A stretch of 64,000 nucleotides of DNA from Tribonema minus (Eukaryota > Sar > Xanthophyceae > Tribonematales > Tribonemataceae), in assembly GCA_017506865.1 (NCBI GenBank), contig JAFCMP010000555.1, forward strand, positions 248,001-312,000, read 5' to 3'. The notes under the pieces are model-generated. The model was not told where the DNA came from and ran no database searches. It was given only the letters and a program-made list of their open reading frames with translations. Position numbers and translations under genes: made by a program. Positions 345 through 55,937 of the stretch are shown here, piece by piece (positions within the stretch are counted from its first letter, which is position 1; every line of letters begins with the position of its first letter).

Positions 345-3300
345 CGTGGAGATGTCGCGCGCTTATCACTACGCGCTCAGCAAGAGGTGCGCGCACCGCT
401 TCATGTATGCTCATGTGAGGGGGGGGGTCACAACCTTCATAATGTTTCACCCGGTTCATGTATGCTGATGGGCTTACAAAAGGGGGGGGTAGGGGGGGGA
501 GAGAGTCACAACTTTCATACTTGAATGTAGTTCATGTTTCACCTGGTTCGTGTACGCTCATGGGCTGTCAGGGGGGAGTTGGTGGGGGGGGGGGAGAGTC
601 ACAACGTTTACGCCATGTTTCACCTCACCGAGCAGATGGCAACTGCTGGGCTTTGGAATTGAAAATCACAGATGCGGACACCCGAGCGCCCGCTCGCTGC
701 GCGATGCATAGGGCTGAGGGTAGTTGTGATAAAGTCCTGTGGGACGCGAGTGGGGTTATGACAGGTTTACCTGCGCCTCAAGTGGCAGGCCGCTGGCATA
801 GTCACCTGCGCCAACCGCTGATAGGACTTGTTGAAGTTCCGCGTTCCGCGGCACCCCCACGAACATCAACTGCCGTGCCATCGCCAATCGCAACTTGATG
901 TGCTGCCGCTCTTCTTCCCCCCCCCCCCTCCTCCCCCCCCCCCCCCCCGGGGCGTCAGCCGCAAATCCGCGACACAGCGCACGGCAGGCAACAAACATCA
1001 ACTGCACCATTGCCTGAAACTTCAAGTGCAGACGCTCCGCCCCCGTTCTGTCCGCTGCTGCAGCGTCACGCGGCACTTCCTGGATAGTGACACTACGCGC
1101 GGCAGCCGATAAACGTACACGATATCATCGCCTGTGAAACTTCAAGTGAAACTTCAAGTGCTGACGCCCCCCCTTCTTTCCGCCGCCTGCTGCAGCGTCA
1201 CGCGGCACTTCCCCGACGGCGACACGGCGCGCGGCAGCGGCCGCGGCGGCCGCATCATCCACTGCATGTGCCACGACAACGAGATACTGCTGACGCTGCC
1301 GAGCTGCTACGCGCGACGCCCGCTCATCCGCGGCAGGTGCGCGCGGGCTGCTACTAGTTGAAGTTGAACTCACCTTACCCATGTTGAAGTTTTGTCTACT
1401 TCGCTCCTCCCTTGCGTTGTGGAGGGTGTCCCCCGCACCCACGGCGACATGACGCCAGCGCAGCTCTCGAGGTGGGCACAGGGTTGGTTGAATTCTCTCG
1501 AGGATGCACAGGGTGGCGTCAGCTGAAGCGCTCTCATGCATGCTACCTGCGGCACTCGTGCGCGTATTACTGCAGTGCGTACCAGGCCTGCTACAGCAGA
1601 GGCAGCTGACGCCTCAGCCGCCTTGTGATTCCCTTACGCCTTTGCCGCTGATTCAGCCTGTGCAACATGGCCCTGAAATTGCTCGTGCCAGCTGGACTGC
1701 CTGTGAGTTTTACATACTGAATACGGTGCGTCAGGTGCAACGGCATGGCAATCTGCTACAAGCCTCCGTGTTGCGAAGCGCGCTTGCCTGCTGCGCGCGT
1801 GTAACGCCGATCTCTACCCGAGCGCCGGAGTGCAAAGCGTGACCACGGCCCTGAGACGGCCCAACTGCGTTCGCATGTTGCATACCGATCACTGTGATGT
1901 CGCATGGCAATCGCACGACGCGATTCTGTTGCGACTTCTCTGGTGCCTGCAGCCACGACTTCTATGCGCGTGCCAGAGCGCAGGGCCTGAAGACAGCCTT
2001 GAGACAACCTGACTGTTTTCTTCTTGCGCTGATCACTGCGGTATTGCATGACAATCGCATGACTCTTGCAACGTGCGCTTGCGTGCCGTGTCGAGTGTGA
2101 CAGCATTGCAATCTAATCTGCGTGACGCCATTTTTCCTTCCTCTTGTCGACGCGACTTGTGCGCGCAGCGACGACTTCTACCCGCGCGACGAGGCGAGCC
2201 ACGGCAGTCACCTGTACAGCAACGCATTCAACGCGCTGCTCATTGGGCACTGCGGCCTGCAGGCAAGTCGCACCCTGCGCAGCGCCATGGCATTGAACTA
2301 TGCTGACATGCAGTACCTGCGCCGGGAGCGTCAGCTCTGCGCAACTCGATCTGAAAAAACGAACCACAAAGCTGAGGCACAAGAGCCACTTCGACAGCTG
2401 TATTCGTAAGGCTTTTGGGGTTCCCATTTGTATACCGACTACTGTCAGCAGTCAGCACGTCAGCGTAGCGGTGCGGGGCAGACGAGCGGACACGCGCTGC
2501 TAGCAGCTTGCGCGGTTTGAAGTCTGATGACGTGCTCGCTGCTGGAGTCGGCCACAGAAGCGCTGGACGGGTTCACGCACCACGCGCTCGCCGGGCTGCG
2601 TGTCGCGCGCCAACAGCCTGCAGTCGAAGTGTTCAACCTCAAGTTGAAGTTTGCACCTGTGCGTACACAAATTGCACGTGCGCCGTCCAGCGCGTGCAGG
2701 ACAGGGACATGTCCGAACGGCATCTGTCTCGAGCTCCCTTTTGCCCTGAACTTCAAGTTTCATGTCATTGTGATGCACCTTCACATCTCCGATCCACTTT
2801 GAACTTCACGCTGAACTTCCTCGTGACGCACCTTTCTTGCCGGTCCCTCACGCGTACAGGCCGTCACATTGTCGATATCTGCCCCCGGCCTTATTGCCAG
2901 CCCTTCCGCGCACGCTGTCAGTTTCTGATCTCTGCCCCCCCCGCACCCGCGCATGCGCAGGACTGGGACATGTTCCAGACGACGCTGGGCCCTGTGAGCT
3001 GGATGCACGCTGCGAGCCGCGCCATCAGCGGCGGCCCCGTGTACATCAGCGACAGGCCCGGCGCGCACGACACCGACATACTCAAGCGCATTGTGCTGGA
3101 GGTACGGTCTGCTTTCTGCTTGCGTGGCGGTTCAGCTATACATTCTGATCAGTCGCGGCACTCTATCTACTGGGTGTGTGTGCGTGCTTGCGGCAGGGGG
3201 GGGGGCGGGGGGGCTAGAGCTGGAGTCAGTTGATGATTCCCGTTCTTTGCTCACTGGCGTAATTCTTAAAAGTGCACCGTGCGTGAGTAATGGCACGGTC

Positions 3301-3958
3301 ATTTCATGTACATCAGCGGCAGGCCCAGCGCGCGCACGACACCGACATGCTCAAGCGCATCGTGCTAGAGGTGCGGCAGCCGCGCTTTTCCGCCTGCGTG
3401 TCGATGACCGGGGTGCAGCTACGCGCCCGGCGCGGCAATGGCAATCAATGTACTGGGTGTGCGTGTGTGCTTGTAGCGGGGGGGGGGGTGGGGGGTGGGG
3501 GGGGGGGTCACAGGTGGGATCGGGGTTGATAATTTCCGTTCTTTGATTGCTGGCGTAATTCAAGCGCACCGTGTGAGAGTTATGGCGTAATCACCCACAT
3601 GTAACATTTTAATTTATTAAACAGTTCCAGCGTGAAGAGCCGGGGCCAATCGGTCTGTCGGGGGTGTGTGTGCCTTTAAATGCTGGTTTGTGGCCAGGGG
3701 GAGGGGGGGTGTCAGAGCTGGAGTCAAGATTGACGATTTCCATTCTTTGATCACTGGCGTAATTCAAGCGCACCGTGCGTGAGGTATGGCACGGTTACTG
3801 TCATGTACACCAATGACAGGCGCAGCGCGCACGACGCCGACATTCTCAAGCGCACCGTGCTGGAGGTATGGTATGCTTTCGTGTTGCGCGCTACATTCGC
3901 CATGCGCTGATCGCCAGCGATTTTCGGTCGATTGATTGATCAGACTTATACTGGAGGG

Positions 3959-12030: not shown

Positions 12031-15000
12031 TTACTTGGCGGCGGCGGCGCGGCGCTTGTAGCGCACCATGATGTTGCCCTTGGGTCCAACGACCATGCTC
12101 TCGTAGTTGAGCTCGGGCATCTTCTTCTCAATGAGCTCAAACTCGAAGTTGCGCAGGAGGATAGAGACCAGCGTCTTGACCTGAAGTAGAGCATCAGCAG
12201 CGGCGACATTGCTTGTTGTTAGTTCAATGAATCACTGGCTCAGCACCAGGGACACTCAGGAGAAAATCATCATCAGAGGTGACGTTTCTAGATTTCAGCA
12301 CACAAGAAAGGAGTAATTAGGGTCAGGTAAGGTTGCGCAGGAGGATCAACACAAGCGTCTTGACTGAAGTGAAACATCAGCGGTGACATCGCTCGTTACA
12401 AGTAATCGAGCACTGGCTTCGCACCAGGGACAGTTTGGAGGAGCTCATAATCAGAGGTGACTTTCAAAAACGTCCTGTGAGCACGCAATAAGAAGGATGG
12501 CCATTCCACCGAAGAAACTGCAATCAAGCTACACAGCGTGACCAATAAGATGGTTATAATCTACAGGTAACGTAAAGCGTTGTGGGTGAGAGCGACTACT
12601 GTCAGTGCATGTTGTTTCAGCATTTCCCCCCCCACTCATTGAAGTAGGCGAAGCATGCGCCCTTGAACAGATGACAGGGCAGATCAGTCGGAGAGCAGAA
12701 GGCAAAGCTGCAGGCACAGGTCAAACCTTGCAATCAAATCAGCAAGTCACAACCTCGCATGAGCAGAAACCCGTGCAGATGCAGGCGATGCACACCGGCA
12801 CATGTCAGCACTGCAATGCCGCCAGCGTTGCCCCATCTCCGCCGTAGGATGCTGATGACATTCTTCCATTGCGCTGTGTCATTGCATACAGGAAGTGGTG
12901 TTGAGTGCGAGCTGATGCCTACCCTGACCCTGACGTTGTCCCTAACCCTAACCCGAAGCCCAAGGTGGTGAGTCAGCAATATTGCCATACAGACGCCAGC
13001 AGCAGCACACTTCCAACAACGGATGCGCGCTCACTGTCCTCGCTGTGCATGCCGGTGGGCGACTTGGCTCCGCAGAGGGCGCGGGTCGTGAGCACAATAC
13101 AACCCTGTACAGAGGCCTCATTGAACTATACTTAAACATGAGTTGAACTAGTATATTGAGCTTCACTACAGAGAGCGCCGCGCGCAGTAGTCACGCACCT
13201 GCAGGAAGCCAAACTGCTGCCCCATGCACTGGTGCATGCCGGCGCCGAAACCGAGGTACGCGTAGGGGGCCTTATGCTCCTCACGCGGGGGCGCGTAGCG
13301 GTCGGGGTCGAACGTGTCGGGGTCTTTGAAGACCTCTGGTATGCGCATGGCGACGGCAGGCGACGTGAAGACCAGGGAGCCTGCACGCACGCCGCAGTGA
13401 TAAGTCATGTGATCATTTTGATTTCATGAAAAGTATGGTGATACACGTATTGCATGGGGGTATTGAAGGTGTTGGGGTCCTTAAAGACCTCCGGTATGCG
13501 CATGGCGACCGCGGGCGACGTGAAGACCAAAGACCCTGCACGCGCCGCGCAGTGGTGAATCACGTGAGCACTTCTGATTTCAGAATCATGTGAACATCTT
13601 GGTTTCATGAAAAGCATAGTAATACACGTATCACGTAAGGGTATTAAACGTGTCCGGGTCCTTGAAGACCTCCGGTATGCGCATGGCGACGGCGGGCGAC
13701 GTAAAGACCCGGGAGCCTGTGTTTCAACACGGATATGTAGTTGATGGATTTCATATCAGCATGGCGCTGAAACAACGCACACCACCGCATGCGGTAGGTA
13801 TCAACAGCTGGCGTTATTACGTGCCATTATTGCGCGCGCAGACACATGACCGCGCGCTCTGTACACACATTCACACAGCCCCCCGTGAAAATGGCCCCCA
13901 GAAAGAACAGTGCACGTGCTCGGATGGGCGCTCGGAGAGTACACGCGCGCACTCACCCTTCGGCACGGTGTACTCGGTGCCCTTGCTGGTGACGGCAAAG
14001 TCCTGGCGCGCGTAGCGCATGAGCATGATGAGCGGCGGGAACATGCGCAGCGCCTCGCGCATGCAGTTGTGCATCAGCTGCGGCAAACAACACAAGGGGG
14101 AGGAGGCAGGGGGGGATCAGGGGGGATCGTTGTCAAGCCCGCCTCCAGGGGTGGCAGGCAGCGCGTGTGGTGTTCTCGGTGTCTGCTACTGTTGCCAATT
14201 AAGACATGCGCATACATGAGCATGATGAGCAGCGAGAACATGCGCAGCGCTTCGCATAGGCGGTTGTGCAGCAGCCGCAGCAGCAGAGCTGCGGGAGCAT
14301 TCAATGGCATGCACAAGTTGAAGTATCACCGTGGCATGCACAAGTTCAAGTATCACCGTACTGAATCAGCGTTTGCCTTGACTGGAGACGGAAAGCAGTC
14401 GCGAGTGACACCTTCGTGGAAGTCCTTGTGCACTGTAGCACATCTACCACAAAACATGAATGCGTACCTCCTGGGTACACAGGCGGCCGGTCGTACAGCG
14501 TCACAGGCTGCTACAGTACAAACGGATCCAGCCCTTATACACGCTTGTCCTATAACAAAAGTGGAATAGAAAGTTGTGGGCGCCCTGTTTTATGAACCTT
14601 CAGGAGAGTACGCTGTGCTCCAAAGCGGTAAAATGTACTTGAACAGAAGAGACACTTCCAGATTGTTGCACGACATGTTGATTCCGTACAGCAAGCTTCA
14701 AGTTAGATACTTCGAAGGACCATTCATCTGGGCTTTTTCGCGCCCTGAGCGAGAATTAATAAAGAGTACGTACCTCCATGTTTCCTAGGTGTTCCCAAGT
14801 CACGGGTGCGTCTGCGTCCCCCACCACTTGCGCCTGAGAGGCGGGCATGAGCCAGCAATGGGGAAGTGCGGTGTGAATCTGCAGGTACATGTGTGATGCG
14901 AACTGGTAGGTGATGACACATGCTCGATGCACCGGAGAGTTCCTGTCGCACCAGAAAGATCCAGCCCAAGCAGCTATCTGCCTCCCATGTGCCCCCCAGG

Positions 15001-18000
15001 GCAGAACATCAGCTTGTGTGATGGATATCTGAAGAGCGCAACATGAGTGCGGCGGCCGCAAGAGTAGCATCGCCACGTGCCTGGAGTGCAGTCGCACTGG
15101 CTAGGAGGTTTGCATCACGATGCTCTTCAACGCAGAGCAGTGCGTGTACCCAAACTTGATGCCATGCTCAACGGACGCCTCGCGCACCAGCTGGGCCACT
15201 TTCCTAACCGTAAGCTAGCACTAACCCTCACCCTAACCTAACCCCAATCCTAATCATAGACTCCTAGCCCTAACCTCGCAAGTGGTCCGACAAGCAGAAC
15301 ATGCGTACGGTGGCCGCGAGAGTGCCATCGCTTCGCGCCTGGAGTGCCGTCGTACTGGCTAGGAGGTTTGCATCGCAAAGCATCAACGCAGAGGAGCGCT
15401 ACTTCTCGCTCTTCCGTGGTATATTGTGCACACATCACCGAGCAGCAGCTGTACCTGCTCCTCCCCCAGCCGCTTAATAATGTCGAGAGTGGTCATCGCG
15501 AGCGTGGCGGTATACCCCAGAAGACCTTGCAACTGCAACAAGTGCGCGCAGATGCTCGCGCCGCAGCGACACGCATGCAGCAAGAACAAAAAAGAGCCCC
15601 TGCGTCGCGCTGCTGCCGTACGCGTGCCTGGCTCGTCTGACAATTCATGAGCAGCGAATCGCGCATACGAAAACAAAAGGAAAAACACGAAAAAAATCAC
15701 CTGCTCTTCCTCCAGGCGCTTCATGATGTCCGGGTTGAGCATGGCGAACGCCAGCGTCCACGTGGACGAGATGCTCGACGTGTGCTGCCCCGCAAAGAGC
15801 AGCGCGATGAGCATGCCCGTGACCTCGTCGTTGGTGGGTGCGCCGCCGTCCTGCGGTTACACGCAGGCAGTTACGCGACAGTTACGTGACAGTTACGAGG
15901 TGCAGTAGGTGGTTTGAGCATGCCCGTGACCTCGTCGTTGGTGGGCGCGCCGCCGTCCTGCAGTTACACACGCAACAGTTACGCGACACTTACAAGGTGA
16001 AATCAATCTGGCACGTTATGCGGGTGCATTTGCGCTGTTGGTGGTGCCTGCTCTCAGTGCTCTGATTTGATGGTTGCCGCAATTGCTTTTACGCATGCCC
16101 GTGACCTCGTCGTTGGTGGGCACGCCGCCGTCCTGCGGTTACACCCAGGCAGTTACGCGACAGTTGCGTGACAGTTACGAGGTAGGTAGTTGAGCATGCC
16201 CGTGACCTCGTCGTTGGTGGGCGCCCCGCCGCCGTCCTGCCGCGCGCGACAGTTTTGCGTGGCAGTTGCACAACAGTTGAAATTACGCAAGGACGTCAGT
16301 AGGAAGCCTCCGCAGCGCGAGGCCGTCCTGCCGTACGCAACAGTTAGGTGATAGCATAGCGCAAGTCAAAATAGGCCACATGGCACAGTCACACACTGAT
16401 GACACTATGACGCGCCGTGACAAAAGTGTTGACTGCATGGTCCGCCCTTTGGCTCGTCTTGAGCCGCATCGAGCAGCTTCAGAACATCAACACCTCGATG
16501 TGCGCCATAATGTGCCGCAGGAAAGCCGAATACAAAACAACTTCAGCATGTGGCGCGTCACCTTGTACTTGAGGTCCATGAAGATCTGCAGAATGTCCGT
16601 GTTCTTTGCGTTCGCCTCCGGCCCTGCCTTCCGCCGCGCCCGGATCACCTCGCCGAATAAGCGGCACATCTCCTTGCGTGCAGCTGCGTTCAGCAAATTG
16701 GGCACGCGCATCAGCGATCAGCCACGCGCGTCACAGCAGCGCTCAAACAGGTGGCACACATCTTCTTCCGCGCGGTAGTATGTGGCACAACAACCAGCTT
16801 CAAGCGCAGACTTGAGGTGAGTAAATGGGGATGGGTTGGCATACTTCGAACAGGCGACACAACCCCTTGGTCGCAGCTGCGCTCAGCAATCGGGCATGTA
16901 CATTGCTTGACGGCGATCAGTCACATGCATCACAGCAGCGCTCAAACAGGCAGCACAAGTCTCCGGTCGCACGTGGCACGACAACCAGGTTCAGGGGTAG
17001 GGTTGAGGTTGAGGATAGGATGGCACACTGAAACAGGCGACACATCTCTTTGCGAGCAGCTGCACTCAGCAAACGGGCATGCGCAGCGGCAGCAGCGATC
17101 AGTCGGACGCATCGCAGCAGCGCTCAAAGGGCGGCACACACACACTTGCGCGCAATCGCCCTCTGCAAAACAAACAGAACTGCTGTGGCGCAGTAAAGGC
17201 TACATGGCCTAGTTCAACGTAGCACGTTGTAGTTGAAGCGCAGTCTTGCTTGAGGGCTGTTGGAGATCAGCTCCAGATTGTTGGTTTAGGTCATGCTTTC
17301 ACTAACCCTAGCTCTGGGCCTAATTCCGCCAGCCTTGGCCCAGAGCGCATCGCACAACACTTACAGAGCAGCAAACGCAGCGCAGGCTCTCGCAGCGTTG
17401 CGCTTGAAGTGCTGCGGGATGGGCGCGTTCGGCAAGAAGAACGAGACCGGCGTGATGCCCTGGTCGAGGTCATGCCATCACTGACGCTTGCCCTAATTGA
17501 ACCCTAACCCCACCAAGTTAACCCCCCCCCCCCCCCCCCTGCCCGAGCAAGCACAAGGCATCGACCAACTCTCACCGTTGCGCTTGAAGTGCTGCGGAAT
17601 GGGCGCGTTAGGGAGGAAGAAAGACACGGGCGTGATGCCCTGGTCGAGGTCGTGGTACAGCTGATGCTAGCCCTAACCTGACCCCCAACCTCACCATTTT
17701 TAGCCCCCAGCAAGCATGGAGCTAGCACCGACCAACTCTCATCGTTGCGCTTGAAGTGCTGCGGATTGGGCGCATTCGGCAGGAAGAAGGACACCGGCGT
17801 GATGCCCTGGTCGAGGTCATACTCATGCTTACTCCACAGCCTTGAACCTAATGCTGGCCCAGCGCATCGCACAACAGTTACCTACTTGGCAACCGTTACT
17901 AAAAGTAACAGACGCAGCGCATGCCTTCTCACCGTTGCGCTTGAAGTGCTGCGGGATGGGCGCGTTCGGCAGGAAGAACGAGACGGGCGTGATGCCCTGG

Positions 18001-18173
18001 TCGAGGTCGTGGTACAGCTGCGCGACCTGGTGGTGCAGGTTCTCGCGCACGTCGTCGCCGTGCAGGCAGCGCGACGCCGTGAGAATGGTCAGGTCCGAGA
18101 GCACCTCCATGATGTCAAACTCGCCGGAGTCACCCCACGCTTTGGTGAACTCGCGCACCTGTGAGGACGCGCG

Positions 18174-18204
<31 letters not shown>

Positions 18205-22087: not shown

Positions 22088-23368
22088 TCAGTTGGGCTCT
22101 GGGCACCCATTCGCACGTGCCCAATCCGCCACCTCCTCATGGCCTTCATCCTCGGCGAACTCTACGGTGCGCTCACCCCCAGGGACACCCGTTGGCGCGC
22201 GCCCACTGCAGCACCTCCAGGTGACCCCCAAAACCTGCGGCGTCGCATGTACTGCCGTCCCAACGGCAGCCATTGGCGCGCGCCCAACGCAGGACGTTAA
22301 GATGACCGGCCTCCGCTGCACGGCTGCATGTCTGCACGTCCCACGGACAACTGCTGGCGCGCATCCATCGCAGGACGTGCAGATGCCCTCCACCCGCTGC
22401 ATCGGCAAATGTCTCCTCGTCCCAGGGGCACCCGTTAGCGCGCGCCCACTGCAGTACATCTAGGTGCCCGCTCCTTGCAGCGGCTGAGCATGTGGCCGCA
22501 GTCCAAGGGCACCCGTTGGCGTGCGCCCACTGGAGCACCGCCCCCCTTCCGCTGCAAAGCTGGCTGCCCCTCCAGGCCACGGGCAACCGTTGGCGTACGC
22601 CCACTGCAGTACCGCAAGGTGCCCGCCGCGCGCTGCCAATATGCAGGTCCACCCGTCCCAGGGGCACCCGCTGGCGTGCGCCCACTGCAGCACCTCCAGC
22701 TGCCCGTTTCCCGCAGCATCTCTGCATGTGTCCTCGTCCCAAGGGCAGCCGTGTGCACGAGCCCACTGCAGTACCGCAAGATGCCCGCCGCCCGCCGCGG
22801 ACGAGCACGTGCTCGCGTCCCAGGGACATCCGTGGGCATGCGCCCACTGCAGTACTGCAAGATGCCCGCCGCCCGCAGCTTCTTCACACGTTTTTGCGCC
22901 CCAGGGACACCCGTTGGAATGCGCCCACTGCAGCACTGCTAGATGCCCTCCTGCCGCGGCGGCCTCGGGTACGTCGGTGTCCCAGGCGCTGCCGACCTGG
23001 TGCAGCCACTGCAGCACCTCAAGCTGACCGCCTAGTGCAGCGGCTACGCACAAATCTGTGCCTTCACCATCACCAAGACAGTGTTCTCGCAACCACTGAA
23101 CCAGCTGCAGGTGTCCCCTCCAGGCAGCGATTTCTGTGTGAATTGGTGACAGGCTTGTCGGGTGTGTGCTGCGGAGTAGCAGCATTGCTCCCATATCGCC
23201 CCTGCGGATGCACGAGGTGTGCGCCACGGCGACGTCCATACCGTTCTGCACCGCCCACAGAATCAGGCTGGTGCTGCCGACAGCATCCGCCGCCACGGTC
23301 TCATGCTTCCATGGTGCCGGACCAAGCTCCAAGATATCGTGAAAGGTGCGGCAGGTGCTCCTGGTCAT
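22088..23368 (-). pseudogene. F-box-like / ankyrin-repeat protein with homopolymer frameshifts
   Basis: The minus frame from 23368 reads at least six tandem ankyrin-like units of the form GGHLAVLQWAHANGCPWDAxTC. Near 22541-22546 (C6 on plus) the frame shifts, and repeats continue in another frame to about 22180. Near 22176-22180 (C5) it shifts again and ends EVADWARANGCPEPN, stop at 22088-22090. Upstream of 23368, another frame reads HILGFLPPTLMTRSTCRTF, which resembles an F-box and is joined to an ATG-led frame (MAANPILSAAP) only across a further shift at the G4 near 23398. Such proteins are usually adaptors for ubiquitin ligases or binding scaffolds; the partner is unknown. Three shifts, all at homopolymers, could be assembly indels in a live gene or true decay. 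Confidence 0.75.
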
Positions 23369-43500: not shown

Positions 43501-46500
43501 TGCCACCTCAACAAGTGATGCTCACCGCTGCTCACATTACATTATGCTGTATACGCATGTTCCCCAACGCAGCATTTGCCATTTGTTCTGGTGTTCCAGC
43601 ACTTCTGTGCTGCTGGATTTGGCGGTCGGCGGCGGCGCCTAGTGTGTTGTTGACCCGTGCTTTTTGACAAGTGATGCTTACCGCATCTCACTCAGAGTCT
43701 CCGTGCAGAGTACTTTACATGCTCTTGCATGGCCTGTCCGCCTAATTTGATTATTTGTTATCCCAGTACTCCTGCCGCTGGATTTTACGGACGGCGGCGG
43801 AGCCGCAACTATTCCTCCCCTTAATTTATAAGTGTATTACTCGAAATAATGTCTGACATTTTTTCAGTTAATTTCTCATCGTTGCGTCCCAGTACAACAA
43901 GTGATGCATGCCGCTGCTCAAAGTACACGTTTCAAGCTCTTGCATGGCCTGCCCCCCACTTTGGTTTTTTGTATTTCAGTACTTCCTGCTGCTCGATTTG
44001 GCTGACGGCGGCGGCGCTGCGATTCCGCGCGCCTCGCGCTACCTGCACTACGCCGCGCACCTGGGCTTCGGCGAGTACGCTGGGCGCGGCTTCGAGAGGT
44101 AAGTAGGTACACGTGTGAGCTTATTAATACAGTTACTTTATTTTTTATTATTGTTGCTATTTGCCATTCTGTCACGGCACACACCATGTGATAGTGCGAG
44201 TGGGTAGCGGCTCAAGATTGTAGCTACGGTAGAGGGTGCACCATCACTTATGTACAGTCGCCATTTTTTTTTTAACCTTCGCATGTAGATGAGTGAGAAG
44301 GCAAAGTCCAAAGACACTATCTTTTTCAAGTCTCAACATTTAAATTTATAAACGTTGTCAATATTATCCATGTAGTACTATCAAAATCAAATCTTTGACT
44401 ACTCTCAGTTTTTTGTGGTCTTCAATCTGCACCACGCCGCGCAGCACGACTTCGGCGAGTATTTACATATGCATGCCACGTCTGTCACCTGCCACTGCTT
44501 CATGTCGATTACACCGTGATACTGTGAGGAGAAAGCAGTTCAATATTGCACTCCGCTGCGCACCCCGGCATCGGGACTGCGGGACGCAATTTTTTTTCCG
44601 TGCGCGTACGCGTGCATCACCTCTGATACTTCTATTGGGCACCGTCTTGTGATGGCTTCATGCTGCTGGTGTCAGTTTGCGCACAACAGAGTGGGTGACG
44701 ACTGCGGGGTCAGGGTCAGGATGAGGATTCGGGGTACCCCACCCACACCCTAGTCCTAACCCTGAGTGTTGGGGAAGCGTGCGTGAGTACGCGAAGCGCA
44801 GATTGTTGAGGAAGAGTGGGGGGGAGGGGGGGGGGGGGGTGTCATGAGCTTCGTGACTGGGTTCTTGTTCACTTGCGTATGATTACCAAAAACTCCGGTT
44901 GTGCCCCCCTACCCACTTGCACTGCAGCCCTGTGCACAGCTTCACCTGGCTGCCGCAGCCCATCGGCAAGGTGGCGATCGTGGAGCAAGGGAATGAGGTA
45001 TGTAGGGTATGTAAATGCTAGAGAAGTAGATGCCATGCCTTGCCAGTACCTGAGCCTCACCTGCTTTCACCATTGCTGAACGCATACTTTGAGGGGCTCA
45101 TATTGCAAAATCATGGTAGCCGAGAACAGGAAAGGACTATTGCAACTGACAATGAGGTATGTATGGCATGTAGACACTGCGCTTTCCAGCACATTGGATG
45201 AGCACTGCCCCTTGCCGACCTTACTTCGTTTGAAGTGCTATGCCAGTCAACAGCAACTAGCTCTTACTGCCCTAAGTGTGCTGGAAAGTAGTGGTGCACG
45301 GGGGGTCGCACGGCCTTAGGGCTAGGGTTAGGGTGAAAATTATCTCAGGGTAAGGGTGAGAGTTACCTAGCCCTAACCCGACCTTAACCCTAATCGTAAC
45401 CCTAAAACTGAGCAGAGGCGTGCGCCGTATTCGACTGCGCGTTGCGCAACCGTACTTTATGCTGAACCTCTCTGCAGAAACTAGTGCAGCAGGCCCTGAG
45501 CGCTGTTGCTGCTGCTGTCGCCGCCGGTCAGACATGTGGCAACTGGTGACGCATTGCAGGTGGCACGGCCCACCCTCTGGTGGTGAGGTTTACCTCCACG
45601 TTCATCGTAAGCCTTACCCCAACCTTACCCTAGCCTTTTTTTGCAAGACACCAGAGCATGCCATTCGCGCCAATGTTATGTGCATTACCGAGCGCCGTGG
45701 CGAGTGGCAGGGTTTAGCGTTAGGGTTCGGTCTAGGGTTAGGGTTAGAGTTAGGGTTAGGCGTGGCGGCACACGGCTGTGCAGAGACGCGCTGCAAGCCC
45801 TGAGCGCTGCTGCTACTGATGCCGCTGCCGCTGCCACTGCCGCCGTAACCTTCAAGGGGAAGCCCTAAGCGCTGCTGCTACTGCTGCCGCCGCCTGCGCC
45901 TGCTGCCGCCCGTTGTCGCTGCATGCCGCTGCTGCCACGCTTCTGGTGTGCCGATGGCAGGTAGTGCACGTGGCTTCGCACGGCGGCGCGGAGGCGCGCG
46001 CGGTGCTGCACTGCAATATGAACCCTTCTAAACAGCACTGACATCAGACTGCTGATGATGCTACCGCACGCCGCCGCCGCTGCTCCCTGCCAACATATGC
46101 GGCAGGTGGTGCACGTGGCGTCGCACGGCGGCGCAGAGGCGTGCACGACACTGTAACATCGACCCTTCTACTTCCAAATACACAGTACTAGGTTTCTGCT
46201 GATGATACTGCTGCGCGTCGCCACTTCCGCCGCCGCCTGTCAGCGCATGCGGCAGGTGGTGCACGTGGCTTCGCACAGCGGTGCAATTTCTTCTAAGCTC
46301 AATCTCATGAAAGCGCCTAAGATAGACGCTGGCACAGCAAGCCCTGAACACTGCTGCTGCCACACTGCTGATGTGTCACGACAGGTGGTGCACGTGGCGT
46401 CGCACGGCGGCGCGGAGGCGCGCGCAGCGCTGTAATGTCATTTAAACTCTGTTAATAATACCCGATTGCTGCTGACGATGCTACTACGCGCACAGTACTA

Positions 46501-49500
46501 GATCGCTGCTGACGATGCTGCTGCGCGCCGCCGCCCCCGCCGCCGCTGCTGCTGCCGCCGCCGGTCGATATGGCAGGTGGTGCATGTGGCATCGCACGGC
46601 GGCGCGGAGGCGCGCGCGGCGCTGGAGGGCGCGCGTGCGGGCGCGCTGTACACGCGCACCGACGCGTGCCGCGAGGGCTTCGCGCTGCGCCACGACACGG
46701 CGTACCGGCCGCACCGCGTGCACGCAGTGACGTGCGTGGACGACAAGGTATTGTTCGGGCTGGTGGGTGATGCTCAGACAGTATCAGTGGTGCTCAGCAG
46801 GGAGTCGCGGCTTGTAGGCGTGGACGCCAAAGTGGTGATGGCCGCTGTGTGCTTCAGCTGCACCACGACACGGCGTACCGGCCGCACCGCGTGCGCGCGG
46901 TCACGTGCTTGGACGACAAGGTGATGATGACGGTGATGATGCTCAGCGAGGCAGTAGTGGTGGTGGTGATGCTCAACGAGGAGGTGATGTGCGTGGACGA
47001 CAAGGCGCTGACGATTATGATGCTCAGCAAGGAAGAGGACTGACTGCGTGCGAGGGACTTTTGCCGCGTCGGGTCTTGTGTGCGGCTGGTGCAACGCGCC
47101 GTGTGAAGTGCGCGCTGCGGCGCACTGATGCCTGCTGCTGCGTGCGCACGCCCCAGCTGTGCATAGGGGGCGGCACCACATGGTACCCTCACCGCTTGCC
47201 CTGACCCTAACTTAATCCCAACTCCTCACTACCCTTGACCCTAGCCCTTGCCCTGATCCCTGACCCCGACGCTGATGCTAATCCTGAGACTGTGCGCTGC
47301 GAAGCACCGGTGTGCTGCGCCCACAGGACTGCGTGCGCGCGTTGCAGCGCGTGCGATGCGCCAAACGAGCGGACAGCACGCAACCCTTTCCGATCGTCTG
47401 CAAGAGGTGCAGTGCGTGACGCACTGTAGACCCCAAATCATCAGGTCCTCGCCGCACCGGCTCTTGTGTGCTGCTGATGGCACTTGCCACACATGTACCC
47501 TTGACCTAACTTCAGTCCCTAACCTAACCGCAACACCAATCGCCAGCTCTAACCCTAATCGTAGCTCTAAGATTGAGCTCTGCAAAGCAGTGATGCGCAC
47601 GGTGCAGCGCGCGACCCTTTTCGGTTGTCTGCGAGAGGTGAAGCGCGAATCATCAGGTCCAGGGTGAGGACGGGGCACCGTTGCGGCACGGTCTGGCATG
47701 CGCAGAATGCCGCTCGAGCCCCCCCCCCCCCCCTCCCCTGTGCACCGCCAACATGCAATCCTGCGTCAACAATTTGAAGACTAGTTTTTTCAATTGTGTT
47801 CAAGTGGTGCATCGCGGACGCACATGCATGCTCACATGCCCCGCCTCCCCATTTTCAGTGGTGTTCAAGTGGTGCCTTACAGATGTGCATGCATGCTCAC
47901 TTGCCCCGCCCCCCATCGAGTTCGTCACCTCAGGACATCATTATGCAGCATCGGCGACGAGGCGCACTGTTGCCTGCCGCGTGCACACACTGCAGCGCCG
48001 CCCCTCCGCCCTCAAACCGACAGTGTGCAAGTTTTATCTTGTTACGACTGGAATACAGTGTGGTCTGGCAGTCCAATGGCATTACAGACGTACATAATCT
48101 ACAACTACGTTGTGTACGTGCCCCCTCTCACGTTAATGCCGTCTCAGGACATCATCCTGACCAGCAGCGACCAGTCGCACTGTTGCCTGCAGCACCCCCC
48201 CTCCGCCCTCAAGCCAACAGTAGTGTGCAACGTTCTTTTCAGTTTGGGCTAGGGTCAGGATGGAGCACTGGCGCTGACATTCCAGTGATGTTACAGACGT
48301 ACATACCTTCGATGTATGTTGTTAACGAGCCTTCCCCTCGCCTCTTTTTCAATTTGGGTCAGGCTTAGGGTCAGGATGGAGCACAGATGCGGTACGGTCT
48401 GGCATTCCAGTATTCTCAACCTCCTCCGCTGCCTTTGCTAGTGCGCAACACCGCATTTCCAACCGATGTACATCGTTACATGTGCCGCCCCTCGCGTGTG
48501 TGTTGTCTCAGGACATCATCCTAACCAGCAGCAGCATCAACGACGAGGCGCACTTCATCACGCACTGGGACGCGCCCACGGGGCAGGAGCGCCTCAGCAG
48601 CGACCAGTACTCGCCGGTGCTGGTGCAGCGTGAGGAGGTATGTATGTATGTTAGCATTGAAAAAGTATAGCCAACTGTTTAAATTATTGATGAAGAAACC
48701 AAACACTTGCCGGGGCAGGAGCGCCTCAGCAGCGACCAGTACTCGCCGGCGCTGGTGCAGCGCGATGAGGTATGTATGTATGCATTCGAATACTCTAAAT
48801 GACACTGTTAGGGCTAGGGTTTGAAGCGCCTCAGCAGCGACCAGTACTCGCCGGTGCTGGTGCAGCACAAGGAGGATGTATGTATGCTAGTATTTAAAAA
48901 GTCTATCCAATTATTAAAAAAATACATCAGTCAATTGACAGGGCAGGAGCGCCTCAGCAGCGACCAGTACTTGCCGTTGCTGGTGCAACACGAGGAGGAT
49001 GTATGTATGCTAGTATTCAAAAAGTCTAGCCAATTATAAAAAAAGACATCACACATTTGACGGGGCAGGAGCGCCTCAGCAGCGACCACTATTTTCCGGT
49101 GCTGGTACAGCGCGAGCAGGTATGTACGTATGCATTGAAGTACTTCAAATAATTCAATAGCAGCCTCAGGGTTAGGGTTAGGAGCGCCTCAGCAGCGAAT
49201 AGTACTCGCCGGTGCTGGTGCAACTTAAGTAGGGGGACATGCCATTTGGCAATGTCGTTCAGAAGTGATCGCTGGTACGCATTGAGGCAATCTCACAGCG
49301 TTTACAAGACACAATGTAGATCCACCGTCTGGGCTCGCACCCTAAGTCAGCAGTAATTTACGTAATGAAAAAAACTACTTTTACAAGTAGCAAATCAATC
49401 AAATAATTGCAAGTTGTGAACGACATGAATGGCAGAGAGCGCCCAGCGCGTGCTGCACTGGAGCGGCGCCATGTGCTTGCAAGCGCGATGGTTTGAAGTT

Positions 49501-52500
49501 TCAATTGAGTTCACTTGCTTATTTGAAGTTCTAAGTTGAAGTTGAAATATCGGCGCTGCAGGTGACCAGCCCTCAGCGCGTGCTGAAATGGAGCGGCGCC
49601 ATGTGCTTCTCAAGCGCGATGGTTTGAAGTTTCGACTTGAATTGTTCATTGGCAATGCCTACATCCAATCGCAGTTCTAAGTTGAAGTTGCAACATCGAT
49701 GTCGCAGGTGAACAGCCCCCAGCGCGTGATGTACTGGAGCGGCCTCGTGTACTTTCAAGCGCGATGGTTTGCAGTCTCAAATTTGAAGTGTTCATCAAAG
49801 TTCTGATTTGCAGTTGTGGAATTAACGTTGTTGCAGGTGAACAGCCCCCAGCGCGTGCTGCACTGGAGCGGCCCCATGTGCCAGCTCTTCAGCGGCGGCG
49901 AGAGGCATGGCTTCATGCTGGGGTGGCTGCTGCAGCCGCTGCGCTGCACGCTGCGCGTTCAGCTGCACAGCATGGCAAGTACTGCCCAGAGATGCGTTTG
50001 CTTTCAGTTCAACTGTACTGTTCATTCAACGTCATCTCCAGCAAGTTGCGCATTCAGCTGCACAGCATGGCAGGTATTGCGCAAAAACTAATGGTTCCGT
50101 GTTACTGTACGTACGACTTCAATTTCAGCATGCTGTTTTAAGTCCAGCTGCACAGATTGTCAAGTGCCGCGCATAACGCATTATTCACTTCTACTTCAAT
50201 GTTATAATTCAACTTCAACACGCCGCACGTCCAGCCGCACACAGCATGGCAAGTGCCACACCCATAAAAGATTGCTTCTTCTACTTCCTACATCAAGTAT
50301 GTTATGTCAATGGTAATTACCAAGTGCATCCCCCGGCCAGTGCCGCGCATAACATTTGGGTTGGTGGTGCATGTTGCACAGTTTTATTCCACCCTGCACA
50401 GGGTTAATTCCACCCCAGCTTTACTGAAGGCGCTCCCCGTGACATGAACACGTGTACTTTGTTTGATCGCTGCGTCAGGCGTGCACTCGGACGGCCTTAC
50501 ATGACGGCGCACGCAGTACAAGGGTTAGAATTACAGTTAGGGTTGGGAAAATCTCATCAGTGCCGGCGCTGTGCTGCGTTCTACGCATCCAGATAGACTA
50601 GACTATTTGCACAGAACAGGCTGGTTTGATTTCATCGTTGGACGGAACCCCCTTGCGTGATGCCCTTCTTTGTCATGCGGTTGTTATGCGGTCATGCGCC
50701 CTGCGGACCCGGCGGGCATGAGTGCGTTGTTCGCACACCGCCTGCTGACCCTAACCCTAACCCTAATCCTTACCCTAAAACCAAGGGATTTTTTGGCACA
50801 GGTGCGTGTATACGTCTGCCTGCAGACCATCGAGGCCACAGGCACGGCATCGCTGAGCAGCGCAGGCCAGACGACGCGGGGCCTTCCGTAACCGCCCTTT
50901 CCCCCTTTCATTCCGACGAACCCTTGTTTCTCACGCGCCTCATGGATCTGTCTGGCGTGGGCGAGGTCTGCGCCTTTCTACACACTCCAAAGCGTGCTCT
51001 CCTGCATTCATTTGCAAGTTCGCGCGCAGAGCATCGAGAGGCCATTGTCACGGCGTCGCCGAGCACGAACAGGCGCCAGACGACGCGAGGGTCATCTGTA
51101 ACCGCCCATCCCGACGCTCCACTGTTTCTTGACAGGCGATCACGCGCCTCATGGACCTGTCAGGCATGGGCGAGCTGTGAGCGTAACTAGGCGACTCAGG
51201 GCCTTCCGCAACTGTCCGCCCCCCTTCATCCCAATGCTGCATCGCTCTTTCACAGGCAATCACGCAGCTCATTGATCTGTCAGGCGTGGGCGAGCGCTGC
51301 GCACACCACTCTTGTACACGCTTCAAAGCATGCGCTTCGCATTCATGTTGTAAGCACGCGCGCGCGCACCAGACGATGCGGGGTCTTCTGTAACCGCCCA
51401 TCCCCCCTCACCCCGATGCACCACTTCGTTTTGACAGGTGATCACGCGCCTCATGGATCTGTCAGGCGTGGGCGAGCTGTGCGCGCACCACCTGCCACAC
51501 ATGCACTTGAGAGTATACACACTGATCACGAATACGCCCGAAACTGCTGAATGCGCGCGGAGGAAGCCGTGCGCGCCAGACGACACAGGGCCTTCCTCAA
51601 CTGACCTCCCCCATTCACCCCTGATGCTCCATTGTTTCTTCACAGGCGATTACGCGCCTCATGGATCTGTCAGGCGTGGGCGAGCTGTGCGCACATCACC
51701 TGGCGTCGGCGTCCGCAGATGGCACCCTGGCGATGTGGGGCGGGCCCACCAGCACGGACCTCGAGGGGTTCGGCGGCGAGGGGGCGCGCAGGGCGGTGCA
51801 GCTGGTGCACGCACACGAGCGTGGCATCAAGGTGTGTGCATACTGCTGATGGCCGAAGAAAGATGGTGATGACGCTGCAGTGTGTATGCAGTAGTGGAAG
51901 GAGAATTGTGGGAAGTACTTCAACGTGTAAGTTCACGGACCTCGAGGGGTTCGGCGGCGAGGGAGCGCGCAGGGCGGTGCAGCTGGTGCACGCACACGAG
52001 CGCGGCATCAAGGTGTGTGCGCATGTTGCTGATGATTGCAGGAGGCAGTGTCATGATGATAGCGATGAGATGTCGTGATAATGATGAGTGCTACGCAGGC
52101 GGTGCAGCTGGTGCACGCGCACGAGCAAGGCATCAAGGTATGATGATGCGTGAACGCGCCCTCTGCAGGTGATGAAACAGAGCGAAGCGCACGGCCTCAA
52201 CTTCACGGCGGGCGTATTCACGGGCGCCGCGGAGATGTGGAATTCATGAATTCACCTTGCGTGAACGCATCCTCTGCAGGTGATGGAGCAGAGCGAAGCA
52301 CTCGACCTCATCTTCACGACATTGCCCTCTCCAGGGCATGGAGCAGAGCGATACGTGATGAAATTCATGAATCGCCATGCTTGAACGCGCCCACTGCAGG
52401 TGAAGAAACCGCACTCTGCAGGTGATGGAGCAGAGCGAGGTGCATGTCCACATCACGGAATTCATGAATGCACTCGCAATGTGCCCCGTGCAGGTGATGG

Positions 52501-55500
52501 AGCAGAGCGAAGCGCACGGCCTCATCTTCACAGCGGGCGTCTTCACAGGCGCCGCAGAGACGTCCCAGGACGTCAGGGTGTGGAGAAAAGACAGCGCGCT
52601 GGGCGTTAACAGGTGGCTCGCCAAGTCGCTCAAGGGCCACGCGGTGCAGGTGCGTGGAACTTTGTAACTCACGGCAGGTTGCTCAAAGGTCACGCCGTGC
52701 AGGCATGCATGCTGCTGATGGGGAAAAAAAAGTGCATCACTACTTCATGCTGAGGGCGCAAAAAAGCCCAGGTGGTTGACGCTCTTTCTGTGGAAGGTGC
52801 ACACATCAAGTGGGCGCGTAGCTCAACCCAGCCCTAGCCTTAACCCTAACCCGCACCCTAACCCTAATGCTACGCAACCCTAACCCTAACCCTAAGGCAC
52901 ACACGGGCCACTCGGTGCAGGAGCTTGGATTCTGCAACTACGCTGTGGTACAGCGCCGAATGAGGCGCCGAGTTGAGCAGACTTGCCAAAGCTAAGGCAT
53001 TGCCTTGATGGCTTGTGTTGCCGTGTACGTATGGACTTGTATTGATAAAGGCCCAAGGGAGGCCGGGTTGCCTATGCAATCGAAAAGCTTGCGTCGACGC
53101 AGCAGCCTAGTCTTCGCTGTGCCCTAGGAGTTGGATACCGGCGCCGCAACACAGCCCAGCATTCGCGCTCCACGTGTGTATGCCATGACGCGCTCCGCCA
53201 ACTCCCGCGCCAGCGATATGCTCAGCGCAATGTGTTGCCGTGTACAGAGAATTCCGGCTTTGTACTCAAGGGCACCGACTGCACCTGGGGCACAGCGCGG
53301 ATTGAATTGCTGCTGGCTAAATTTACTGCATGCGCTTGGATTGCAGGCACCGTGCACATATTTTGTAGCTGACGGTATTCCCAGGTACTCCCAGGTACTT
53401 CAGCGCGGGCATCGCAGCAAAGGCACTTCACGCAGCGGCACTCTGAAGCAGGTACCGAAGGGGCGGCAGGGCGGTTTCCATATGTACCTCACCCTGTCCC
53501 CGCAGTGCTCCGCATCACAATTTAAGGAAGGGCACCCTTTCTCCCTTACCCAGGTGGTGGGCATCGCATGCCCGCAGGCGACATGTATATCATGCCAGCG
53601 GCGTTTTGTTGTACGTCCTTTTTGTTTTAGTGAAAATTTATTCGAAGTTGAACTTCTCGGTGGTGGGCAGTGCGTGCCCGGCGTCGTACACATGTTGCAA
53701 GCACAATTGAGCACACTGAAACAATGTGTGAAACAGGTCCGTAAGGCTCAACGTCCTGCTTTTTGCTCTAGATTTCGCTCTCCCAGCTAAGGAAATCTGA
53801 GGAAAACAGGCACTTCAACTTGAACTCTGCGCCTTGTGTCGGTGGACCGCTTCGGCGTCATGCTGTACATCCTACATATTTTAGTGCCAAGCACTTCAAA
53901 GTTCAATTTTGCGCATCGCTTGTCCCAGGTGGTGGGCATCGCGTGTGCGGAGGGCAACACACACCTCGTATGCGCGGACCGCAGCGGCGTCTGTGTCGTG
54001 CACCCTTGTCATTTTAGTTGCAGATATTCCAACTTCAAGCTTTCCTCTTTGTCCCAGGTGGTGGGCATCGCGTGCCCAGAGGGCGACACGCACCTCGTAC
54101 TGGCGTACCGCAGCGGCGTCTTGTGGTATCTTAGCGATAGTTGTTTAAAGTTCAACTTTGCGCTTTGCTTTTCGCAGGTGGTGGGCATCGCTTGCCCGGA
54201 GGGCGACACACACCTCGTATCTGCGGACCGTAGCGGCGTCCTGCTGTGCTGGTCGCTGCCAGCGCTGGAGCTGCAGCAGCGCTTCTGCCGCTCCGACAAG
54301 AGCCCACTGACGGGGTCTGCGCTGACGTCGCTGGTAGCGCTGCCGGGACTGGGGGAGCGCCCCCCTATGGTTCGTACTGCTTATACTTCCAGTAGTATGT
54401 TGCTGAAGTGCAGGTGTATCTTATATATTTTGCATATATCTTTGAGTTGCACATCCTGCAGCAGAGCTTCAGCTGCTCCGATATGAGCCCGCTGACGGGC
54501 TCTGCGCTGACGTCGCTGGTGGCGCTGCCGGGACTGGGGGATCGTCCCCCAATGATTCGTGCTGGTTGCAGTATACTTCAAGAAGGAAGCCCTTTGTTAA
54601 AGTGCATATACATCTGGCAACTTTTTCAGTGTCTTTCAGATATTCATGATGCACGCTGCATCAGCGCTTCAGTCGCTCCGACAAGAGCCCGCTGACAGGC
54701 TATTTCTGCTGACGCCGCTGGTGGCACTGCCGGGACTGGGGGAACGCCCCCCTACGGGTCGAACTGATTGCAGTGTACTCATTTGATTGAAGTGCAGATA
54801 CATCCCACGTATTTTCAACCTTTTACTAAGAGTACATGGCGCAAGCTGCAGCAGCGCTTCAGCCGCTCCAACCAGAGTCATTTGACGGGGTCTACACTCT
54901 CGTCAAAGGTGGTACAGCCGCGACATCCCCCTATGGTTTGGGCGGCTTGGAGTGTACTCTTGTCCTGCTGGTCTGAGCGGCTTGGAGTGCACACTGGTAG
55001 TGCTGATCTCTCAGGCATCTTTTCACTGTGCTTTGAATTGTGAACAATGCGATCGAGCTACGGCAGCACTTCAGCCGCTTTGGCGAGAGATCCCTGAGGG
55101 GGGGGGCGCTGCTCGTGCCTTTGCTGGCGCTGCCGGGACAGGGACAGGGACAGGGAGAGCGCGCGCCCTGCGTTGCGCGCTGTTTTCGTTGCAGCTAGTG
55201 CACGCTCGCTGTTGGATGCTCGCACGCCTTGTCAACAGCTGCTTGATATAAACCAGCGCTGTTTGATTGGTTATTTCGTCATTCAAATCTTGCGGCTCGG
55301 CAACAGCCGCTCATCGTGATGGCCAGTGCATTAGGTATTCACTATTGCTTCGGTGTACACTGCCATTTAGAGCTGGTGGAGCGTGGTGTCGACCTTCCTG
55401 CTCGCGCCTGGTAAGGTCGCGCGTGACTAGAAAGGTGCCGCCGTGGACAGCATGCAGCGCTCAGCACATAATGCGGTTGGCCGTCTTCAATTATTCTTCG

Positions 55501-55937
55501 GCTGCTGATTGCCACGTTTTTGATCAGGAACACTTTGCCTGCTGATTGCCACGTGTTTGATCAGGAACACTTTGCCTGCTTGTGCGTTTCACAGGTGCTC
55601 GCCTGCTCCGCAGAATTTAAAATTTTCATAAAAGTGGACGAGCGCCTCAGTAAACATGGATGAAATGTGAAAATCCATGAACTGGCCCCGAGCTCGCCTG
55701 CTGCTGAACATCTCGCGTATAGGGGTAAGGGTAGGTAGGTAGACTACGGGATTCAAACTTGTGACATTTGTGCTTGGTCCATAAAACCTTGCCTACTGGT
55801 GCGTTTCACAGGTTGTCGCAGGCTCCGCAGGACTCGAGTTCTACATTAGAGTGGATGAGCGGCTCAGAAAGCCGCTGGTCTGCTGCTGCTATTGTGAGAA
55901 GCTCAGCTTCATTGCCACCGCCAGCGCACAGCGGTGA
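40525..55937 (+). CDS. EF-hand and WD40-repeat protein
   Basis: Exons: 40525-40656, 40772-40878, 42805-42913, 43980-44098, 44928-44997, 46577-46747, 48512-48637, 49837-49974, 51646-51831, 52494-52649, 54178-54369, 55812-55937 (TGA); phases agree throughout, giving 543 residues. Residues about 45-80 look like a helical EF-hand half. A canonical loop DVRGDGSVSWED at about 103-114 should bind calcium. The rest forms a WD40-type propeller: LLLDLADG, SFTWLPQPIGKVAIVEQGNE, THWDAPTGQ, RVLHWSGP, AITRLMDLSGVGEL, LASASADGTLAMW, FTAGVFTGAA with DVRVW, KSLKGHAVQ, and LVSADRSGVLLCW. Such proteins are calcium-responsive scaffolds, some of them in cilia; no partner is evident. The first exon is the least certain: an ATG at 40757 reading directly into the second exon is the alternative. 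The intron after 49974 has a GC donor. Nearly every intron holds exon-edge copies. Confidence 0.82.
41990..42670 (+). repeat. Four copies of the 5' end of the EF-hand exon
   Basis: gtgcaggccgagcgcg, gaggatgaggcggggttt, cgcgacgt and cagcaga units occur near 41993-42052, 42176-42250, 42394-42475 and 42584-42665 in the intron ahead of the used exon at 42805. They are separated by poly-G runs and aacttcaa motifs. Several keep the gcag acceptor. Confidence 0.88.
43018..43086 (+). repeat. Copy of the 3' end of the EF-hand exon
   Basis: gtgcgcggcgacggctccgt then cagctgggaggacttcag, followed by gtgcgttgagc, repeats the exon end and donor at 42875-42920. The calcium-loop residues are intact. Confidence 0.9.
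45953..46435 (+). repeat. Four copies of the 5' end of the 46577 exon
   Basis: caggtggtgcacgtggcgtc then gcacggcggcgcggaggcg recurs near 45957-46005, 46100-46150, 46250-46285 and 46380-46433 before the used acceptor at 46576. VVHVASHGGAEA is readable in most. Confidence 0.9.
46850..47005 (+). repeat. Copies of the 3' end of the 46577-46747 exon
   Basis: caccacgacacggcgtaccg and tggacgacaag followed by gtgatg repeat the exon end at 46855-46925. A shorter tgcgtggacgacaag copy lies near 46988-47005. Confidence 0.85.
47928..48195 (+). repeat. Two copies of the 5' end of the 48512 exon
   Basis: ctcaggacatcat followed by related sequence occurs at about 47930-47975 and 48145-48190 (DIILTSSDQ readable in the second) in the intron ahead of the used exon. 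Confidence 0.75.
48708..49225 (+). repeat. Five copies of the 3' end of the 48512-48637 exon
   Basis: gcgcctcagcagcgaccagt then actcgccggtgctggtgcag recurs near 48713, 48827, 48947, 49069 and 49183, roughly every 115-120 nt. Most are followed by gag-gtatgta donors. SSDQYSP coding survives in most; the last copy is degraded. Confidence 0.92.
49430..49770 (+). repeat. Three copies of the 5' end of the 49837 exon
   Basis: cagcgcgtgctgcactggag and cggcgccatgtgc at about 49443, 49574 and 49718, each followed by caagcgcgatggttt and a ttgaagtt-rich flank. The period is about 130-145 nt. Confidence 0.9.
50040..50260 (+). repeat. Copies of the 3' end of the 49837-49974 exon
   Basis: cagctgcacagcatggca (about 50055-50072) and weaker cagctgcacagattgtcaag and cacacagcatggcaagtg forms at 50145-50165 and 50238-50256. 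The last keeps the unusual gcaagt donor. Confidence 0.8.
50930..51490 (+). repeat. Four copies of the 5' end of the 51646 exon
   Basis: acgcgcctcatggatctgtc then ggcgtgggcgag copies occur near 50933-50975, 51134-51182, 51255-51300 and 51436-51490, each ahead of a segment with cagacgacgcggggccttc-type flank. ITRLMDLSGVGE is readable in all. Confidence 0.92.
51936..52140 (+). repeat. Two copies of the 3' end of the 51646-51831 exon
   Basis: cggacctcgaggggttcggc through ggcatcaag followed by gtgtgt is repeated at 51936-52015 with an intact frame and donor. A shorter copy at about 52097-52138 ends gcatcaag then gtatga. Confidence 0.92.
52165..52450 (+). repeat. Copies of the 5' end of the 52494 exon
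   Basis: gcaggtgatgaaacagagcg, then aagcgcacggcctca (about 52167-52232), gcaggtgatggagcagagcg (52277-52330), and gcaggtgatggagcagagcg again (52419-52445) precede the used acceptor at 52493. Confidence 0.88.
52835..52895 (+). repeat. Interstitial CCCTAA repeats in a WD40-gene intron
   Basis: Runs of ccctaa and variants. Similar short arrays occur at 45320-45400, 45720-45765, 47200-47290, 47505-47575 and 50745-50780, all in introns of the same gene. Confidence 0.85.
53548..54130 (+). repeat. Three copies of the 5' end of the 54178 exon
   Basis: caggtggtgggcatcgc at 53552, 53927 and 54056; the second and third continue through cacctcgta and cgcagcggcgtc, reading VVGIAC, GDTHLV and RSGV. The exact acceptor is kept in all three. 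Confidence 0.92.
54455..55150 (+). repeat. Four copies of the 3' end of the 54178-54369 exon
   Basis: cagcagcgcttc-type, gagcccgctgacggg, ggcgctgccgggactggggg and cgccccccta blocks recur near 54460-54560, 54660-54760, 54845-54945 and 55058-55145, with decay increasing downstream. The first two keep gattcgt- or gtcga-type junctions. Confidence 0.9.
55585..55655 (+). repeat. Decayed copy of the last WD40-gene exon start
   Basis: gtgcgtttcacag then gtgctcgcctgctccgcag with gtggacgagcgcctcag parallels the used last exon at 55801-55860, but its frame stops after about 22 codons. Use of this acceptor would truncate the protein. Confidence 0.85.

Follow-up and report, generated by a model that had tools for sequence, protein, structure and literature searches.

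Serial copies of exon edges with outward polarity in introns of Tribonema minus

Introns of Tribonema minus contain serial, degenerate copies of the ends of the adjoining exons, extending across the splice site into intron sequence. A sequence-only reading had described such copies in a stretch of 64,000 nucleotides (nt), here called the window (positions 248001-312000 of contig C552, assembly GCA_017506865.1), and our analysis of the window and of the surrounding genome (158.18 Mb, 554 contigs) confirmed that these exon-edge echoes are real and recur in every gene set sampled. Copies of the start of an exon lie upstream of it and copies of its end lie downstream. Very probably they arise when segments of ~100-300 nt across an existing exon-intron junction are duplicated locally in tandem, time after time. 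With 92 exon-wise matches to the light-harvesting (LHC) family in the genome, the organism is a photosynthetic eukaryote, and the splice sites at the copies and at CYP51 exon E4 indicate eukaryotic genes with GT-AG splicing. Among solved structures, one LHC exon matched many entries with LHC names and another LHC query matched none; a search for phycoerythrin alpha, run without a positive control, gave no match either.

Exon-edge copies and their polarity

In the window, 21 exon-edge copies surround 14 exons of three genes: CYP51 (minus strand, ~21.0 to 12.0 kb, from matches to solved structures), NOP9 (PF22493; plus strand, ~30-35 kb) and a raffinose-synthase-like gene (PF05691; near 3 kb). 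All 21 follow the polarity described above and none runs against it. Eleven of the exons rest on a search match; the others (CYP51 E5 and E6b, NOP9-region exon B) were delimited by eye from their reading frames, and leaving them out gives 17 copies, all with the same polarity. The clearest case is CYP51 E4, where the last ~80 nt of the exon are repeated three times past the donor (91, 94 and 96% identity) and the acceptor with the exon start is copied once ahead of the acceptor. Of the four genes with more than forty copies claimed before, these counts cover three; in the fourth region, at 45-56 kb, no Pfam family scored above the cut-off in a scan of the plus strand, so that its arrays are not tied to exon edges. 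Self-comparison of the window gave 129 direct matches, 124 of them less than 3 kb apart, and eight inverted matches at any distance, two of them within 3 kb.

The rule also holds far beyond the window. Among 100 exons (Pfam matches for P450, MCM, LHC and CCT, plus the CYP51 exons) 41 had copies, 109 in total, of which 54 repeat the 5' half and lie upstream and 55 repeat the 3' half and lie downstream, without exception. One copy (L072) was later rejected as an old internal homology of LHC helices that is also present in L068, leaving 40 exons and 108 copies, 54 on either side, with correct polarity in 108 of 108; the rejected copy is still included in the count of 109, in pN/pS (the ratio of replacing to silent differences), in the polarised, 0-fold/4-fold and gap counts, and in the intercept fit mentioned below. 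Up to eight copies occur at a single edge. When exon cores were compared with flanking DNA, 36 of 100 matched their own flanks, but none matched shuffled flanks, the flanks of one other exon each, or the reverse complement (0/100 in each case).

For LHC, loci were taken for 20 of the 92 matches. For CCT, 30 of 56 matches were used and 22 were not fetched; the other four (C5:353415, C135:208473, C51:21979, C51:22169) were dropped as judged copies. Further loci were left out because they belong to the window (L001, L007, L019), have stops within the match (L016, L030), were judged to be copies of neighbouring exons (L029, L049, L052, L053, L055), or closely resemble another locus (L061 and L062, identical to each other, with their relative L060 retained; L075, 99.9% identical to L074; and L059, a 90% paralogue of L058, though L059 bears two upstream copies). 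L076 was retained despite one stop in its match.

Whole introns gave the same picture. We compared 60 introns from 16 conserved genes (P450, MCM, CCT, CYP51) with the ends of exon cores, not with exact splice sites, taking foreign introns of equal length as the null. The end of the upstream exon was found in 20 of 60 introns and the start of the downstream exon in 26, whereas the opposite edges, which would break the polarity (46 right against 0 wrong), were found in none (upstream exon start 0/60, downstream exon end 0/60); exon middles matched in 4 of 31 and 5 of 32 cases. Altogether 37 of the 60 introns contain an echo of an adjoining exon end, nine of them at both edges, and 14 of the 16 genes have at least one such intron. 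Echo introns are longer than the others (median 907 vs 534 nt, p=0.0003), and detectable local repeats cover 26% of intron bases. In 77 partly overlapping loci, 248 direct repeats within 1.5 kb (median spacing 180 nt) stand against five inverted ones, and some direct repeats within this distance occur in 49 of the 77.

Structure and proposed origin of the copies

The exon part of a copy has a median of ~60 nt (range 9-135), and matching stretches lie a median of 180 nt apart (5-95% range 95-516 nt), counting spacings of several units as well. None of the copies listed for the 100 exons covers an exon core completely. In 55 of 101 copies the alignment takes in at least 25 bases each of intron and exon, and 67 of 98 pairs of neighbours are also homologous in the adjoining intron part. 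In L067 a match of 79 nt and 97% identity belongs to a longer unit that is broken by an intronic indel. Since the intron part is shared in most pairs and the L067 match runs on past the indel, the unit is a tandem segment spanning the junction.

Splice sites were assigned by hand, which applies to the survival of dinucleotides, the homology of intron parts, the comparisons of intron with codon positions, the polarised intron/exon count and the stop count. Where the alignment reached the site, the acceptor AG was kept in 39 of 44 copies and the donor in 41 of 47; ten further copies did not reach the site and eight were not assigned. Copies with an intact dinucleotide may be the ready alternative splice sites suggested by the sequence-only reading, but the level of retention (11 of 182 bases differ, near the divergence of 0.066 at 0-fold exon sites) is about that predicted for decay in one lineage. 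At the end of the L025 exon (...CTGAAG|GCAAGT) we assigned a GC donor in place of GT, and the downstream copy retains the GC.

In line with the sequence-only reading, we propose that short DNA straddling an existing exon-intron junction is duplicated head to tail, repeatedly, each time probably by a DNA-repair or replication event, with a unit comprising the first or last part of an exon and the adjoining intron. Splicing would stay with the copy attached to the exon body, and the remaining copies would turn into intron and decay near-neutrally. Duplications within or over a whole exon would alter the protein and are presumably purged. Intron-internal duplications probably occur too, but would fade from view because both of their copies change freely, while the exon acts as a slow-changing ruler that keeps its own copies recognisable. 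The polarity would then be forced rather than an independent rule, because the exon survives a duplication across its junction intact only with the new copy on the outer side, and the copy joined to the exon body must remain the one in use.

Close paralogues indicate that the arrays turn over. In four of four LHC pairs (L065/L064, L067/L057, L072/L068, L059/L058; helix homology excluded) only one member has copies, and with exon identities of 84-90% within these pairs the arrays must come and go on that scale. The introns turn over as well, since their presence or position differs among close paralogues: L067 and L072 possess an intron that is absent from L057 and L068, respectively. P450 genes on contigs C5, C511 and C223 differ in intron position, as judged from match ranges.

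Long introns are usually explained by transposons. The genome studied here would show another route of intron lengthening at scale and provide a natural case for watching introns grow. That this is the main route of intron growth in the lineage, as had been suggested, is plausible in view of the repeat content and the greater length of echo introns but is not shown, given that duplications confined to introns mostly escape detection. Each echo is a datable unit with a slow clock in its exon part and a fast one in its intron part, by which the birth, decay and loss of splice-site copies become measurable. It also raises the question of how the spliceosome chooses among several near-identical junctions with intact AG or GT in line.

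Alternative explanations and related systems

Several observations weigh against serial duplication followed by near-neutral decay. The intron part lacks clear homology in 31 of the 98 neighbouring pairs. Array density is only 0.18 per kb in random stretches (4 in 22 kb; gene content unknown), compared to 0.64 per kb in the window (41 in 64 kb) and 0.71 per kb in CCT genes. Of 31 arrays counted by eye in six genes (CYP51, L077-L081), 28 lie at exon edges, one of them depending on a weak Pfam match (E=0.25), and this clustering is somewhat above what visibility would predict if the introns were once long. Exons and copies diverge by 0.066 at 0-fold and 0.207 at 4-fold sites, a ratio of 0.32 instead of the ~0.5 expected if the copy is free and the exon fixed; likewise, pN/pS between exon and copy is 0.27 (interval 0.22-0.33), and divergence at codon positions 1 and 2 is 0.26 (0.19-0.34) times that in the intron part of these matches. 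The amino-acid sites of the copies thus differ from the exon too little for free decay despite common frameshifts, an anomaly in this reading. A polarised count along the copy lineage (0.107 for intron, 0.048 for positions 1 and 2), mixed with older changes of the exon lineage, is compatible with free copies only with a faster exon branch. Allelic divergence at the time of duplication was considered as a cause of the low ratio and abandoned: the intercept fit was not tight enough, and two pairs of nearly identical contigs (100% and 99.9%; possibly haplotypes) show no sign of high heterozygosity.

The low ratio would suit copies that are kept for function, as alternative or back-up exon edges spliced under some conditions, and so would the survival of most splice dinucleotides, the rarity of indels in the exon-derived part (0.0063 per base vs 0.0357 in the flanks) and the low number of stops (7 vs 11.8 +/- 3.5 simulated). 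However, 17 of 200 simulations had as few stops, so that the shortage is not significant, and the indels that do occur disregard the reading frame (34 of 39 gaps are not a multiple of three, as are 136 of 164 in the flanks). Moreover, polarised changes in the copies comprise 168 replacing, 3 stop and 121 silent ones, against 4 replacing and 35 silent ones in the exons, and the close paralogue does without copies in all four LHC pairs. Gaps, polarised changes and stop count say decay, and we regard a function of the copies as quite improbable. The edge clustering, in turn, would be expected if duplication were targeted to exon-intron junctions, for instance through staggered breaks or template switching at transcribed exon borders, so that introns grow from their ends. 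In agreement with this, the copy most similar to the exon is the nearest in 14 arrays and the farthest in seven (three ties), and telomere-type tracts amount to 0.66 per kb in echo introns compared to 0.14 in the others. Yet the first trend is not significant (p=0.19), and the tracts occur in 10 of 37 vs 2 of 23 introns, with nine of 28 in a single intron. Furthermore, only 16 of 55 arrays were still detected after masking of the exon-derived parts, so that most intron-only duplications escape detection and the apparent preference for edges is in large part a matter of visibility. Edges show a modest excess (p=0.002 if the null share is set to 0.36, a rough hand estimate, and 0.06 if it is 0.5); the three arrays not at edges were unassigned or intron-only (CYP51 15040-15399, L080 1532-1727, L077 1942-2453). 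A process aimed at junctions is therefore possible but unlikely. To a bolder version we give a still smaller chance: junctions in use may be hot spots of both duplication and mutation, where copies bud and are pushed outward, adding to the intron ring by ring at either end, with telomere-type sequence as filler. Silent changes would then accumulate faster at a used junction than in dead copies, and the odd 0-fold/4-fold ratio could be explained with no function for the copies. The strong form, with duplication aimed at junctions, is weakened by the masking result, and ring-like growth is a trend only.

Introns could also have originated when an AGGT segment within an exon was duplicated in tandem, with the echoes as the scar of birth. 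An intron confined to one paralogue (L067 vs L057, L072 vs L068), whether gained there or lost from the other, might fit, but the scar itself is absent: the intron start exceeded the 99th percentile against the downstream exon start in 0 of 60 cases and the intron end against the upstream exon end in 1 of 60 (0.6 expected), both comparisons using exon core ends rather than exact splice sites. This origin is very unlikely. Mobile introns (introners) or another dispersed element with exon-like ends are hardly credible, although one dispersed element does lie within three introns of different genes, because the 60 introns gave only 17 cross-gene matches (three between P450 paralogues, nine from telomere-type repeats, three from the dispersed element and two others) and exon cores matched none of the 100 foreign flanks, one tried for each. 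Finally, nothing was found in favour of an assembly artefact, and we consider its chance negligible, as the copies have diverged, belong to one gene each and are unlike between paralogues on different contigs.

Two kinds of sequence met in these comparisons deserve mention in their own right. The dispersed element, of ~120 nt, lies in intron 2 of cct_L080, intron 2 of mcm_C445 and intron 1 of p450_C223 and is 80-89% identical among them. The telomere-type tracts, (TTAGGG)n, form 28 clusters in 12 of the 60 introns, with 1.2 expected in base shuffles; examples are the CYP51 intron after E4 (~17.5-17.7 kb) and window positions 29441, 45709 and 52832.

Serial duplication across existing junctions resembles several described systems. 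The nearest precedent found is the potato RdRp gene, in which an intron was gained by tandem duplication over one existing intron-exon boundary, with splice signals mostly from the pre-existing junction (PMC4974935). The duplicated segments described here likewise consist of exon and adjoining intron, but the potato case is one event in one gene, creating a new intron whose donor falls within what had been exon in the upstream copy, while we find arrays in 14 of 16 genes with up to eight copies per edge. The suggestion that no named system follows this rule thus has to be qualified by a single published event of the same kind. In the AGGT model of Rogers (review PMC3443670; Drosophila cases PMC2891723) a local tandem duplication also becomes intron, but the new intron lies within an exon and not at an existing junction. 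Daphnia neointrons carry direct repeats that staggered double-strand breaks left inside them (PMC4202315) and share with our introns the repeated duplications, the passive trend to lengthening and direct repeats common with the adjacent exon; these are 4-12 bp there, compared to ~60 nt for the exon part alone here. Internal gene duplications (Gao and Lynch 2009, as cited in PMC4974935) comprise gene segments with exon and intron parts, including segments that hold entire introns, unlike the serial exon edges in our data. Introners alter introns on a large scale, protists and algae included (PMC9860276, PMC7789003), but form dispersed families of similar introns across many unrelated genes, whereas every array here is private to its own exon and 12 of the 17 cross-gene matches are paralogous or telomere-type. 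Compared with these systems, what is new is the scale, with existing junctions duplicated in series in most genes examined, as measured in this genome alone. Full-text literature searches, which left subscription journals mostly uncovered, returned no account of genome-scale serial exon-edge copies. For mutually exclusive duplicated exons one would expect copies of a whole exon with both splice sites and a preserved reading frame, in contrast to the partial copies and frame-blind gaps found here.

Features of the window and further intron observations

Exons, exon-edge copies and repeat arrays in the window (window coordinates)
Feature	Position	Strand	Remark
Raffinose-synthase-like exon (PF05691)	2961..3101	+	Pfam match
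Downstream copy of its 3' end	3307..3370	+	89%
Second downstream copy of its 3' end	3804..3865	+	85%
CYP51 exon E9	12047..12192	-	
Upstream copy of E9 start	12332..12370	-	
CYP51 exon E8	13187..13384	-	
Upstream copy of E8 start	13465..13539	-	87%
Second upstream copy of E8 start	13647..13719	-	92%
CYP51 exon E7	13952..14074	-	
Upstream copy of E7 start	14215..14270	-	
Downstream copy of E6 end with donor	15453..15484	-	
CYP51 exon E6	15698..15853	-	
Three upstream copies of E6 start	15915..16239	-	15915-15960, 16093-16135, 16191-16239
CYP51 exon E5	16563..16690	-	by eye, reading frame
Upstream copy of E5 start	17037..17063	-	another near 16880 read by eye
Downstream copy of E4 end	17393..17471	-	96%, donor GT to CT
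Downstream copy of E4 end	17571..17651	-	94%, donor intact
Downstream copy of E4 end	17738..17818	-	91%, donor GT to AT
CYP51 exon E4	17928..18161	-	end ...AACG|GTGAGA
Upstream copy of E4 acceptor and start	18241..18290	-	
NOP9 exon A (PF22493)	30036..30257	+	Pfam match
Three downstream copies of NOP9 exon A end	30350..30759	+	30350-30429, 30570-30635, 30707-30759
NOP9-region exon B	33397..33642	+	open frame, not a Pfam match
Three downstream copies of exon B end	33710..34089	+	33710-33788, 33850-33912, 34020-34089
Dense local direct-repeat arrays, fourth gene region	45795..55870	.	not tied to exon edges

Two further structures were seen in the window. Similar stretches in opposite orientation (57256-57790 and 62647-63504) surround a frame of 507 codons (60996-62519, minus strand), and the arrangement is reminiscent of a retroelement. 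At 22178-23045, on the minus strand, a coding array with a period of 81 nt forms a tandem repeat within a reading frame and is presumably ankyrin-like.

The introns themselves show additional sequence biases. The motif TTGAAGT/ACTTCAA is far more frequent than expected both in introns and in the window, with 77 occurrences in the latter. Polypyrimidine tracts ahead of acceptors are often pure C runs, e.g. at window positions 18170-18200, and in the 60 introns, read on the transcript strand, runs of at least eight bases have 157 start positions for C compared to 49 for G.

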